In this document: positions 21,376 to 27,588 of the stretch, piece after piece | Position numbering within the stretch: the stretch's first letter is position 1 | Layout: the number at the start of each line of letters is the position of its first letter | Origin: Methanooceanicella nereidis | Lineage (GTDB): Archaea; Halobacteriota; Methanocellia; Methanocellales; Methanocellaceae | Length of the DNA: 64,000 nt | Direction: 5' to 3' | Assembly: GCF_021023085.1 (NCBI RefSeq) | Contig: NZ_PGCK01000006.1 | Location: forward strand, 1-64,000 | Made by a program: the position numbers and the translations under genes | Notes under the pieces: model-generated | What the model saw: only the letters and a program-made list of their open reading frames with translations | Told to the model about the DNA's origin: nothing | Database searches by the model: none

Positions 21376-21603
21376 ATCATCGCTATTCTTTTCTTTTTCT
21401 TTATAATTACAAAGACGATCTCTGTTTAATGTTAACACTCTTTTAAAATACGGAACATTTTCCTGGCTATTTATTCTCAAGAGTAAACCACAAAACAACA
21501 ATAGTATATACAGAAAATTATATTAATATATAATATAATAATAAATTAAAGCTTAACAGCCTGAGATACAATTAAACAGTATTTACCGGAGGTGAACCTA
21601 TTT

Positions 21604-22245
21604 ATGGAGACCCAGGAACTGGTGACAATATCGGTCGGAGGTAAAAACGTGAAGGTGCCCAGGAACACCAGCACTTCACAGATAAGAAAGATCTCAGGCC
21701 TGGACCAGAGCCATGTGCTTGCAAGATCGACGGAAGGGCTGAACAAGATAGTCCATGGCGATATAAAGGTCTCGGACGGGGACTCTTTCACAGTAGGCCG
21801 CTCCTTTACAAAGGGGTCTATGGATGATTCCAGGTTATTGAATGACCTGGATCATCTATCATATGTGTTCAACATAGAAGTGGACGATAAGCTAAACTGG
21901 GTCCTTATACATGATTATGGCCTCCCTTCGGGATTTAACAAAGAGACAAGCGACATATTATTGAACGTCGAAGGCTTTCCGTACCTTCCGCCGGGGAACG
22001 TGTACGGGGTATACATGGATCTTGGCCTTTTATACAATGGAAAAAAGTTGCCTAATTATTATGACTCCATCGAACGCACCATGTTCGGAAAGTATTGGGC
22101 ATGGCTATGCACGGGAAAAATGCACTGGAACTCAAAGATCGACAATATCTTTACGTTCCTCATGACACTGGACATAATGTTGAACGAACAGAATGGAATG
22201 TCAGCGGAAGTATCGGAAAATGATGAAAAGCCAGCAGAAGTTTAG
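21604..22245 (+). CDS. Ubiquitin-like/E2-like fusion protein
   Basis: 213 residues from ATG 21604, chosen because the GGAGGTGA site at 21588-21595 overlaps an in-frame GTG at 21592 but sits 8 bp before this ATG. Residues 1-70 look like a multiubiquitin-type beta-grasp domain (I-S-G-L-D-Q-S-H-V-L...G-D-S-F-T-V-G-R-S-F). Residues 85-195 resemble the prokaryotic E2 family E fold: G-L-P-S-G-F-N-K-E-T-S-D-I-L-L, Y-L-P-P-G and then W-A-W-L-C-T-G-K-M-H-W with Cys169 and His174. It is the first gene of the operon and overlaps the E1 gene by up to 53 bp. The predicted role is modifier plus carrier in protein conjugation; no biochemistry can be inferred from sequence alone. Confidence 0.72.
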   Translation: METQELVTISVGGKNVKVPRNTSTSQIRKISGLDQSHVLARSTEGLNKIVHGDIKVSDGDSFTVGRSFTKGSMDDSRLLNDLDHLSYVFNIEVDDKLNWVLIHDYGLPSGFNKETSDILLNVEGFPYLPPGNVYGVYMDLGLLYNGKKLPNYYDSIERTMFGKYWAWLCTGKMHWNSKIDNIFTFLMTLDIMLNEQNGMSAEVSENDEKPAEV

Positions 22246-23707
22246 AGTATCGTCTTCTAAAAAACAGAGGAAGATAGACAGGAATATCAGGGTCGTTTTT
22301 CCAGAACCGCTGTATGAAGCTATGTCCGGATCGCTGATCAACGAAGAAAAAGCATCGCATGAATGCTACATTCTTGCACAATGCGGGTATAAGGTCGACG
22401 AGTCTAAAAAAAACCTGACATATATGGTTAAAGACCTTTACATCCCGGGACGGGAAGACCTGCTTGAGCAATCCAGCGTAACTGTCACGCCAAAGGCGGA
22501 TTTTTTAGAAAAGATCTTTTCTGAAGCTTATGAAAACAATAGCACAATAATAGAGATACATTCTCACGTTGACTCAAAGTCGCCGAACTTTTCATGGGTG
22601 GACATCGACCACGGCATAGACAACGGCCGGTTTCTAAGGTCGTGTAAGATCAAGTTCGTAATGTGCGTTATCGGCACGGAGGGTTTTTCCATCGCAGAGT
22701 ATGACAGCGACCATGATTCTCTCGACTTGCCTAAAAAAGCGGTTATCAGCATAATGACGCGCAGCGGTATAAAAGATGTACTTCCCGGAGAAACATCGAC
22801 CGGATCATCCATAGAGATATCCCCGGTCTATGACAGGCAAGTGTTAATGTGGGGCAAAGAAGGCCAGGAACGCATATGTAACGTATGCGCAGGGATAGTG
22901 GGGCTGGGCGGAACGGGTTCTGTCCTCTTACAGATGCTGGCAAGGATGGGAGTGAAAAAGTTCGTGCTCTGCGACGATGATATCATAGAGAGGTCAAACC
23001 TTAACAGGCTTCCTTATACATTTAATTCAGACATAGGCAAGAAGAAGATAAAAGCAGCACAAAATTACTTAAAAAAGCTGTCAAAGGACATTGATACTAC
23101 CCTTCTTAACGGCAAGGTGCAGGAGCACAAAGAAAAGCTAAAAGGGTGCGATATTCTTTTCGGATGTGTCGATTCTGAGGGCGCAAGGCTGATACTTAAC
23201 GAAATATCTCTAAAATATTTTATACCTTATATCGATACCGGGACTGAGATATTTTGTAGAAATGCCGATAGTGGCTCTAATAGCCTCGACATGGGAGGTC
23301 AGGTCAGGGTGGTGATCCCTTCAGTGACCGGATGTCTCGAGTGTATGGGAGGCATAGACAAAGGGAAAGCAGAAATGGACCTGCTGAGGCCCGAAGAGAT
23401 GAACATTCGGGAAAAAACCGGCTATGTCAATGGGACGGATATTACTCCGGTACCATCGGTGATATCGCTAAATAATATGATCGCATCGATGGCTGTCCAG
23501 GAATTTGTGGATATGGTCACAGGCAATGGCTCGCGCCCAAAAGAGTATAACTACATTAAGTATGACTCTGTGGAGCCTGTTCTGGAGAGGATGATATTTG
23601 AAAAGGACCCCTCATGCCCGATGTGCGGGAATGGAGGGATACTTGGAGCAGGGGACATTAAGAAGCAATCAAGGCCGCGAATAAAGAACATTGCAGGTAG
23701 CGGGTAA
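22193..23707 (+). CDS. JAB peptidase-E1 (ThiF) fusion protein
   Basis: 504 residues, or 495 if ATG 22220 is used. The N-terminal JAB/MPN+ domain has a metalloprotease signature: E-I-H-S-H at 121-125 with Ser134 and Asp137. The C-terminal E1 domain has the nucleotide loop G-L-G-G-T-G-S at 237-243, D-D-D-I-I-E-R-S-N-L-N-R at 261-272 and a zinc site formed by C381/C384 and C475/C478. The crossover loop T-P-V-P-S-V has no obvious catalytic Cys. JAB could trim or remove the modifier while E1 adenylates it. The fusion mirrors bacterial ubiquitin-like operons. Confidence 0.88.
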   Translation: MECQRKYRKMMKSQQKFRVSSSKKQRKIDRNIRVVFPEPLYEAMSGSLINEEKASHECYILAQCGYKVDESKKNLTYMVKDLYIPGREDLLEQSSVTVTPKADFLEKIFSEAYENNSTIIEIHSHVDSKSPNFSWVDIDHGIDNGRFLRSCKIKFVMCVIGTEGFSIAEYDSDHDSLDLPKKAVISIMTRSGIKDVLPGETSTGSSIEISPVYDRQVLMWGKEGQERICNVCAGIVGLGGTGSVLLQMLARMGVKKFVLCDDDIIERSNLNRLPYTFNSDIGKKKIKAAQNYLKKLSKDIDTTLLNGKVQEHKEKLKGCDILFGCVDSEGARLILNEISLKYFIPYIDTGTEIFCRNADSGSNSLDMGGQVRVVIPSVTGCLECMGGIDKGKAEMDLLRPEEMNIREKTGYVNGTDITPVPSVISLNNMIASMAVQEFVDMVTGNGSRPKEYNYIKYDSVEPVLERMIFEKDPSCPMCGNGGILGAGDIKKQSRPRIKNIAGSG

Positions 23708-23711
23708 CAAA

Positions 23712-24107
23712 ATGCACTTTTCCAGCCCTGACATCATGGCCGGCATAATAGCCGGATTATCCCGGAACATGAAAGAACGTGTCGAGTTCGATGACACGAA
23801 ATGCTGGATAGTCATAAAGAATGTCCGCTTAAGCGATGACTGGAATAAAGAAAGCACGGACATCCTGTTTTTATATGATACGTCAATAAACGACGTAAGC
23901 GTTTTTCTGGATTCTGACCTTGAATATATGCGTGATGACAGATGCGAACATATGTTCGAGTTTGACCTGGAGCATAGCGGATGGAAGAAGCTTTGCACAT
24001 GGGCATATAACGATAAGGCATGCATCGACGACATGAATGAAGTTTTGACAAAAGTGTTATGTATGATGTCACTGCCGTCCATCTGTAGATATCATTGCAA
24101 GGCATGA
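23712..24107 (+). CDS. Second E2-like protein
   Basis: 131 residues. It aligns by eye along most of its length with the E2 half of the first gene: D-W-N-K-E-S-T-D-I-L-F against G-F-N-K-E-T-S-D-I-L-L, and W-K-K-L-C-T-W against W-A-W-L-C-T-G, so Cys95 corresponds to Cys169. It lacks the N-terminal ubiquitin-like part and the G-K-M-H histidine. It starts 4 bp after the E1 stop. It may be a partner or target-specific E2, or an inactive paralogue. Confidence 0.65.
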   Translation: MHFSSPDIMAGIIAGLSRNMKERVEFDDTKCWIVIKNVRLSDDWNKESTDILFLYDTSINDVSVFLDSDLEYMRDDRCEHMFEFDLEHSGWKKLCTWAYNDKACIDDMNEVLTKVLCMMSLPSICRYHCKA

Positions 24108-24648: not shown

Positions 24649-24984
24649 ATGAGCTTAAAGAAAAAGACCGGAAAATGCAATCAGTGTGGCAATTGCTGCA
24701 GAGATTTTTTCATCGACGTTAATCTTGATCAGGTCACTGACTATGAGTTCATGGACTATATAAAATGGCTTAGCTGCCATATGAACGTTGAAGTAAAGGT
24801 AAAGGACCATAAGCGCCGGAAGATAGAGATACAGGTAAAGAACCCGTGTAAGCATCTGGTGGACAATGGTGACGGAACTTATTCATGCGCCATTCAGGAA
24901 AATAAGCCGGAAATCTGCAGACATTACCCCGAAGAAGACTATGAGGACGACATCAGCAGTAAATGCGGCTTTAAATTCGTATAA
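24649..24984 (+). CDS. YkgJ-type cysteine cluster protein
   Basis: 111 residues. C-N-Q-C-G-N-C-C-R near the N-terminus, then C-K-H-L, C-A-I-Q and C-R-H-Y-P form the eight-cysteine pattern of the YkgJ/Fe-S or zinc cluster family. Function in archaea is unknown. Last gene of the 21.6-25.0 kb run. Confidence 0.85.
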   Translation: MSLKKKTGKCNQCGNCCRDFFIDVNLDQVTDYEFMDYIKWLSCHMNVEVKVKDHKRRKIEIQVKNPCKHLVDNGDGTYSCAIQENKPEICRHYPEEDYEDDISSKCGFKFV

Positions 24985-25040: not shown

Positions 25041-25349
25041 ATGGAAATCTGTAATAAATGTGGTTTACCTAAAGACCTGTGTATATGTGAAGACCTTTCT
25101 AAAGAGACGCAAAAAATAAGAGTTTATACAAATACCCGCCGTTTCAAGAAACTGACAACGGTGATAGACGGCATCGATCCGAAGAACGTGAACATTAAAG
25201 AGCTCTCCCAAAAATTAAAGACCAAGTTCGCATGCGGCGGCACTATCAAGGATGGCCGCATAGAGCTCCAGGGAGATCATCGGGAAGAGGTCAAAAAACT
25301 GCTCGTTTCATATGGCTTTTCTAAAGACCTCATAGAGCTAAAGAGCTAA
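25041..25349 (+). CDS. Translation initiation factor aSUI1 (eIF1-like)
   Basis: 102 residues. A short N-terminal zinc-knuckle-like part (C-N-K-C-G...C-I-C) is followed by the SUI1 fold: R-R-F-K-K-L-T-T-V-I-D-G, then K-F-A-C-G-G-T-I-K-D-G-R-I-E-L-Q-G-D-H. It helps start-codon selection on the 30S subunit. It has its own AGAGGAAAT ribosome site and a TATA-like region 5' of it. The stop codon abuts the structured region at 25350. Confidence 0.93.
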   Translation: MEICNKCGLPKDLCICEDLSKETQKIRVYTNTRRFKKLTTVIDGIDPKNVNIKELSQKLKTKFACGGTIKDGRIELQGDHREEVKKLLVSYGFSKDLIELKS

Positions 25350-26204: not shown

Positions 26205-26587
26205 TATGAATTTTTCATATTAGCCAAATTTTAGTAGTAGCAATTTTTTTAGACTTAAACTATTTAAGACTTTGCTATTCGTGAATTTAGTTGTTATTAT
26301 TGATGACAGATATAATTTACACAATATTAAATGTTTCAGGAATATGTTGTCAAGTGGTTATATTTTAATATATTGGTCATTAACCGCTTAATAAAATAAT
26401 ATAAATTGATGGATCAGTATCAGAATAAATTATTGTTTTACAATTTACGGCTATAAATGAACCTTATTTAACGATTAACTCGGACATCTAAAGTATGATT
26501 TAAAAATCAAGCGTAATATCGTGTTATCCGTGAGTAACCTTGAATTGAATACATAATTATAATATATTGGTAAGTTGAGGTGTGGAA
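26205..26587. other. AT-rich intergenic region
   Basis: No gene is visible. The end nearest the KGG gene has a TATA-like run (about 26551-26563) and a GAGGTG ribosome site at 26577-26582. The rest shows nothing recognisable. Confidence 0.5.
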
Positions 26588-26830
26588 ATGACAGATAAAC
26601 AAAAAGGAGCGATGACTGTCCGTGAAGCCGGTCACAAAGGTGGCGAGACCACTAAATCCCGGTACGGTGAAAAATTTTACGAAGAGATCGGGAGAAAAGG
26701 TGGAAAGATCGGCGGAGAGACTACAAAGGAGCGCTATGGCGGAAGTTTTTACGAAGACATCGGCCATAAAGGGGGACAAAAGGTGAAAGAGCTTATTGAG
26801 CGCGGAAAAACCATGCGGGGTGAGAAATAG
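26588..26830 (+). CDS. KGG-repeat stress protein (LEA_5-like)
   Basis: 80 residues from ATG 26588; the upstream GTG 26582 overlaps the Shine-Dalgarno site. It is extremely hydrophilic, with repeats of the form K-G-G-x-T-T-K-x-R-Y-G-x-x-F-Y-E-x-I-G-R-K-G-G. It resembles KGG (stress-induced) and plant Em/LEA group 5 proteins linked to desiccation tolerance. Probably intrinsically disordered. A paralogue lies at 27331. Confidence 0.85.
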   Translation: MTDKQKGAMTVREAGHKGGETTKSRYGEKFYEEIGRKGGKIGGETTKERYGGSFYEDIGHKGGQKVKELIERGKTMRGEK

Positions 26831-27330: not shown

Positions 27331-27588
27331 ATGAACGAAAAAAAGGCAGAAATGACAGTAAGAGAGGCCGGACATAAAGGTGGGTCCACGACAAAGGAGC
27401 GTTATGGTGAAAGCTTCTACGAGGAGATCGGTAAAAAGGGAGGAAAGATAGGTGGGAAAAAAGGTGGGACCACCACAAAAGAGCGCTATGGAGAAGGATT
27501 CTACGAGGAAATTGGGCGAAAGGGCGGACAAAAGGTCCGTGAGCTCATAAAACGTGGAAAAGAGGCTATGGGAGAAGGAGAAAAATAG
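27331..27588 (+). CDS. KGG-repeat stress protein, second copy
   Basis: 85 residues, paralogous to the gene at 26588, with the same opening M-T-V-R-E-A-G-H-K-G-G and an extra K-K-G-G-T insertion. Ribosome site GGGGTG before ATG. It has its own 290-bp upstream region, so it is likely transcribed separately. Likely disordered and stress-protective, by analogy. Confidence 0.85.
   Translation: MNEKKAEMTVREAGHKGGSTTKERYGESFYEEIGKKGGKIGGKKGGTTTKERYGEGFYEEIGRKGGQKVRELIKRGKEAMGEGEK

Follow-up and report, generated by a model that had tools for sequence, protein, structure and literature searches.

The window, a 64,000-nucleotide stretch of DNA from the methanogen Methanooceanicella nereidis, carries what is probably a minimal Bub-type ubiquitin-like conjugation system, fixed in the class Methanocellia and equipped with an E2 that would act through a cysteine. 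Reading of the sequence confirmed three tightly packed open reading frames on the plus strand at positions 21604-24107, which encode a fusion of a beta-grasp ubiquitin-like protein (Ubl) with an E2 (P0001, 213 amino acids), a JAB-E1 fusion (P0002, 504 amino acids as listed) and a diverged E2-like protein of 131-138 amino acids (P0003). The Ubl-E2 gene (21604-22245) is preceded by a strong Shine-Dalgarno sequence, GGAGGTGA, at 21588-21595 (plus strand) and, further upstream, by an AT-rich, TATA-like region around 21517-21547. The JAB-E1 gene (22193-23707) overlaps the 3' end of the Ubl-E2 gene; comparison with orthologues indicates that the true start is most likely the ATG at 22223 rather than 22193, giving a protein of 494 amino acids. 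For P0003 (23691-24107) translation could begin at TTG 23691 or ATG 23712, of which the latter is the likely start, yielding 131 amino acids and a gap of 4 nt to the JAB-E1 gene. A DUF5788 gene, 18 nt downstream of P0003 (24126-24635; PF19101, 91.7 bits), likely belongs to the same transcription unit, and is followed on the same strand by genes for a CxxCxxCC zinc/iron-chelating domain protein (24649-24984; PF03692) and a SUI1/aIF1-type translation factor (25041-25349; PF01253). The close succession of Ubl-E2, JAB-E1 and a further E2-like protein described in the first-pass annotation is borne out by the reading frames, the PF14462 and ThiF matches, a JAB profile and the predicted folds. Its recognition of a mainly bacterial family in an archaeon, and one that is a methanogen, agrees with the kinship to Bub described below and with the presence of MCR alpha in the host genome, which is of the same family as Methanocella sp. 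PtaU1.Bin125.

Beta-grasp and E2 folds in the first protein had been set beforehand as a test of the assignment, and both were predicted. In the AlphaFold2 model of P0001 (pLDDT 87) a beta-grasp domain is connected to an E2-like domain by a flexible link (residues 68-73), in which the pLDDT around Gly71 is <50. The top Foldseek matches of this model were Citrobacter BubB (E 6.8e-6), followed by bacterial multi-ubiquitin proteins (probability 1.00, E 0.013). Comparison of the P0001 sequence with BubB (9eae_C) gave an E value of 9e-7, or 1.6e-16 with a family profile, and an iterated profile, which was seeded with Methanocellia rows too, tied the Ubl to bacterial Bub Ubls (L014/L016, E 1e-12). 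Pfam, sequence and fold comparison place the E2 domain (residues 75-199; 21826-22200) in the Prok-E2_E/BubB family, residues 82-194 matching PF14462 at 31.7 bits against a cut-off of 25.

The Ubl (residues 1-71; 21604-21816) ends in F-T-K-Gly71, with the glycine codon at 21814-21816. Bacterial Bub Ubls terminate in PPATFG plus 0-3 residues, or exactly in FKRG or FQRG; the FTKG sequence, invariant in the Methanocellia, aligns with these ends and runs on in frame through S-M-D-D into the E2. Gly71, which sits in the flexible linker at the domain edge, is the counterpart of the C-terminal or near-C-terminal glycine of the stand-alone bacterial Ubls. In the genome that we take to be Methanocella paludicola (G001) the fusion point again lies directly after FTKG, where the Ubl is joined to the start of the JAB-E1. 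This alignment and the repeated fusion point favour maturation by JAB after Gly71, which, judged from the sequences, is likely and the best-supported first step of the pathway. There is a precedent in an archaeal Rpn11/JAMM enzyme, which processes pro-ubiquitin to its mature form and has been tested on a linear Ub-GFP fusion (PMC5654768). As a counterpoint, the Ubl-E2 fusion might act uncut. The joining of modifier and carrier in one chain is neither the novelty here nor, as was first proposed, special to the archaeon, because such fusions have already been reported for bacteria (Iyer 2006, PMC1779556) and are also present in the bacterial loci L054, L138, L140 and L141.

In P0002 the JAB domain occupies the N-terminus and the E1 the C-terminus. 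The E1 matched ThiF (PF00899) at 1e-43; the JAB domain fell under the Pfam threshold, yet scored 44.6 bits (E 7e-15) with a bacterial Bub JAB profile. Of the domains for which HMM searches had been suggested, Prok-E2_E and ThiF were thus recovered in Pfam and JAB through the Bub profile only, while the Pfam scan returned no Multi_ubiq match on P0001. The JAB motif, E1 nucleotide loop and zinc cysteines, which were stated to be intact, are so in an alignment with 45 relatives: Glu57 (22361-22363), the metal motif H123-x-H125-x8-S134-x2-D137 (22559-22603; kept in 41-43 of the 45), the GLGGTG(S) loop (residues 237-242) and C381, C384, C475 and C478 are nearly invariant. The E1 domain (22829-23662) also contains DRQ at residues 214-216. 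Beyond the four zinc ligands, no conserved cysteine was found in the E1 of the 45 relatives except C325, part of the common G-C-[VT]-D motif. The closest solved structure to P0002 is BubCD (9ea4, E 2.8e-21). The Bub E1 profile scores 244 bits, against <=118 for MoeB-like and other E1s, and the NCBIfam MoeB/ThiF/UbaA models score far below their cut-offs; on the profile scores a MoeB/ThiF grouping, the other outcome set beforehand to refute the assignment, is rejected. A tree of E1 alone is indecisive: the Methanocella proteins form a separate deep branch of uncertain position, and the AU test does not reject their union with MoeB-like E1s (p-AU 0.45). The window genome encodes a separate MoeB-like E1 (L008).

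Cys169 (codon TGC, 22108-22110) occupies the position at which other Bub E2-like proteins carry a serine. In an alignment of 42 loci the column is Ser in 39 and Cys in the three intact Methanocellia systems, the Methanocellia side of the comparison consisting of these three sequences. The surrounding motif reads W-F-S-W-H-x3-W-[ND]-P in most bacteria versus W-[LF]-C-T-G-[HK]-M-x-W in Methanocellia, the equivalent in Citrobacter BubB being W-S-R-H, and the alignment from Ser/Cys to Trp is ungapped against most bacterial sequences. The histidine of the bacterial motif is offset by one residue in two Methanocellia proteins and is replaced by Lys172 in the window protein. The column, which lies after the strand meander of the E2 and before its C-terminal helix, is the putative active site of the E2-like carrier, where the Cys would serve as in ordinary ubiquitin enzymes. 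Cysteine-type systems beyond the Methanocellia were not found when Ubl-E2 profiles were run on 394 genomes of the phylum; these matched only the four Methanocellia genomes and the Ser-type system of G359. A candidate in G101 proved spurious, a short match within a reading frame unrelated to the system. Bub chemistry is said to involve ester-type (oxyester) intermediates, a point not used as evidence here. On the alignments, the Methanocellia Cys in place of an otherwise invariant Bub Ser is a new point.

P0003 displayed no match in the Pfam scan. Searches with the protein and with E2 profiles connect it, among relatives, only with this operon's E2 domain (E 8e-4, 6e-4 and 2e-4), and the weak fold matches of its model (pLDDT 73) are mostly E2s, namely Atg3, BubB, Atg10, Cap2 and UBE2L3. 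Because the Cys is retained, within W-x-x-L-C-T, but the motif His and Trp are missing, our guess is that P0003 probably lacks catalytic activity and serves as a UEV-like partner or an adaptor for targets. Of the four Methanocellia genomes, that of the window alone has this gene.

The Methanocellia locus is an old vertical trait. It occurs in all four genomes sampled, which cover three genera, at the same chromosomal place beside the DUF5788-CxxCxxCC-SUI1 genes; its GC content is ordinary and resembles that of its surroundings, the window neighbours look by inspection like housekeeping genes, and neither a recent gain nor a defence island is visible. Lateral gain, as initially suggested, is not supported as a recent event given the conserved synteny and lack of a GC anomaly, and any such gain must be ancient because the locus is syntenic in four of four genomes on a long private branch. 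In a tree of Ubl, E2 and E1, built with the active-site column left out and with no MoeB rows, the Methanocellia lie on a long stem as sister to a group from Planctomycetota, Actinomycetota and a Ca. Tenderia plasmid (99/99). The Bub systems of a Thermoplasmata genome (L051) and of G359 (L012) are placed away from the Methanocellia, which suggests that archaea probably acquired Bub more than once. The G359 locus (L012:3556-5580), from an archaeon of the same phylum, is a Ser-type bacterial Bub operon (Ubl, Prok-E2_E, JAB-E1) and apparently a separate gain. In four loci read from other families DUF5788 does not adjoin a Ubl system, CxxCxxCC or SUI1, and therefore no empty site was found. Further along the window, at 26582-26830 and 27331-27588, are two small proteins of KGG..ERYGE.FYEEIG repeats that by eye resemble stress-induced KGG-repeat proteins.

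In three of the four genomes, among them G002, presumably M. arvoryzae, every motif is present and identity is 47-65%. The fourth, the probable M. paludicola, displays partial loss. Its copy (L006; L015:8001-9467, minus strand) is one open frame of 483 amino acids that comprises Ubl, JAB and E1, the E2 being missing. In the E1 the DRQ helix and the segment SNLNRLPY are gone, GLDGIG replaces GLGGTG, and identity is 32-38%, versus 60-65% among the others. The JAB domain is 46-51% identical to those of the other Methanocellia, the same as those among themselves. This pattern suggests that conjugation has probably been lost in G001, and that the Ubl-JAB is probably either retained or eroding more slowly than the E1.

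In the mechanism we propose, the JAB domain would act first as a maturation protease that cuts the Ubl-E2 fusion after Gly71, releasing a Ubl with a C-terminal glycine. The E1, whose adenylation motifs are intact, would adenylate Gly71 and, because it contains no candidate catalytic Cys, the simplest reading is that the Ubl would move from the adenylate straight to the E2. Cys169 would take the Ubl as a thioester and pass it to target amines, from which the same JAB could strip it, while P0003 would probably participate as a non-catalytic partner or target adaptor. A wider account is possible but more tentative, namely that a Bub lineage fixed before the Methanocellia genera split exchanged Ser for Cys, uses a thioester without an E1 Cys and a JAB-released modifier, and serves as a housekeeping pathway of methanogens.

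The E2 could instead be a scaffold only, with Cys169 incidental and the Ubl either staying fused or going from the E1 adenylate onto targets or the fusion protein. The probable M. paludicola manages with no E2, the catalytic His position is not kept (Lys in the window protein) and the family has been termed 'inactive E2/RWD-like' (Iyer 2006, PMC1779556). The invariance of Cys169 in three Methanocellia at a position that is invariably Ser in 39 other loci argues for function, however, as does the conservation of Gly71 at a flexible domain-edge site, and we regard the scaffold as unlikely. A decaying, non-functional remnant, to which the lost E2 and eroded E1 of the probable M. paludicola might point, is the least credible reading, given the complete motifs of the other three genomes and the normal identity of the JAB domain in the damaged copy. 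It is hardly more probable that the locus is a sulfur-carrier system with a MoeB/ThiF/UbaA-like E1 and a ThiS/MoaD-like Ubl; although the E1 core is common to both and the E1-only trees leave the MoeB-like join unrejected, the E1 profile scores, the Bub-like JAB and E2 partners and the separate MoeB-like E1 in the genome speak against this role.

The first-pass annotation also envisaged a self-contained conjugation or defence system. A self-contained set of parts is indeed present; for defence no positive evidence emerged at this locus. A laterally gained, Bil-like antiviral operon would be in keeping with the protection that the related Bil and CBASS E1-E2 systems give bacteria, with the location of some bacterial Bub loci on plasmids, beside HTH and ImmA/IrrE regulators or, in one case, on a viral contig, and with the TIR-like gene adjoining the Thermoplasmata Bub locus. 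At the latter (L051:3359-6266) the gene directly after the operon looks TIR-like by eye in its C-terminal part, a hint that Bub may be tied to defence in that genome. The Bub region of the putatively viral contig (L135, IMG/VR, 142,954 bp) yields Ubl, E2 and E1 rows identical to those of the Isosphaeraceae genome L050. In the Methanocellia, by contrast, the locus keeps its chromosomal position across the four genomes, from three genera, among housekeeping neighbours and with GC like its surroundings, PADLOC gives only generic E1-E2 with no specific match, and protection by Bub against phage has not been demonstrated, as its discoverers themselves state (PMC13373217). An antiviral operon is therefore judged improbable, slightly more so than the scaffold, and the housekeeping context, ordinary GC and lack of demonstrated phage protection make us favour a role in cellular protein modification over one in defence.

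Among ubiquitin-like conjugation pathways Bub has diverged strongly; structures of it have been solved, and its E2-like protein has been regarded as Cys-free. A natural Ser-to-Cys Bub would provide a direct test of E2 chemistry, serine versus cysteine, and the Methanocellia, in which Bub is a fixed trait, offer a chance to learn its cellular job; the methanogens of the class would thereby have a candidate means of tagging proteins reversibly. The new elements are the class-wide locus, the E2 Cys169, the conserved Gly71 end of the Ubl, the E2-less copy in G001 and the P0003 gene of the window genome.

The eukaryote-like ubiquitin cluster of Ca. Caldiarchaeum and Asgard archaea (PMC5654768) resembles the window locus in combining an archaeal Ubl, E1 and E2 with a modifier-maturing JAMM protease, but its E2, E1 and JAB come from other families. 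The Pfam scan detected no RING-type small E3 among the neighbours of the window locus. Bil systems, to which kinship had been proposed, likewise hold Ubl, E1, E2 and JAB within one operon. In Bil (bacterial ISG15-like), however, JAB and E1 are separate genes and the E2 is of another family, and the fused JAB-E1 and Prok-E2_E type E2 of the window rule out Bil membership. The layout is that of row 6e of Iyer et al. 2006 (PMC1779556), with Ubl(s), an E2/RWD-like domain and a JAB-E1; this, with the Bub matches by sequence and predicted fold, identifies the system as Bub-type (polyUbl/Prok-E2_E/JAB-E1), in a variant with an E2 Cys. The Bub subgroup from Planctomycetota, Actinomycetota and the Ca. 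Tenderia plasmid (L038, L048, L050, L138) shares the Ubl end F-x-[RK]-G and, in L138, the Ubl-E2 fusion, but differs in its mostly separate JAB and E1 genes, its E2 Ser and its long branches. On the Ca. Tenderia electrophaga plasmid (L138:3557-4600) three Ubl domains and an E2-like domain form one protein, which carries only a hypothetical-protein annotation and is followed by separate JAB and E1 genes. A DUF6527/BubE gene was detected neither at the window locus nor in the four Methanocellia genomes (one bacterial query, without a positive control), and none was seen beside L048, L051, L054 or L012; this partner is present in many Bub systems, not all. CapH/CapP-type regulators were likewise not seen at the window locus, a difference from Bub. 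With BubA-BubB-BubCD(-BubE) the Methanocellia locus shares its gene order, its best PDB matches, the Ubl, the Prok-E2_E and the N-terminal JAB on an E1 with DRQ, GLGGTG and four zinc cysteines, whereas it differs in the Cys for Ser in the E2, in its vertical inheritance within an archaeal class and, in the window genome, in the extra E2-like gene.
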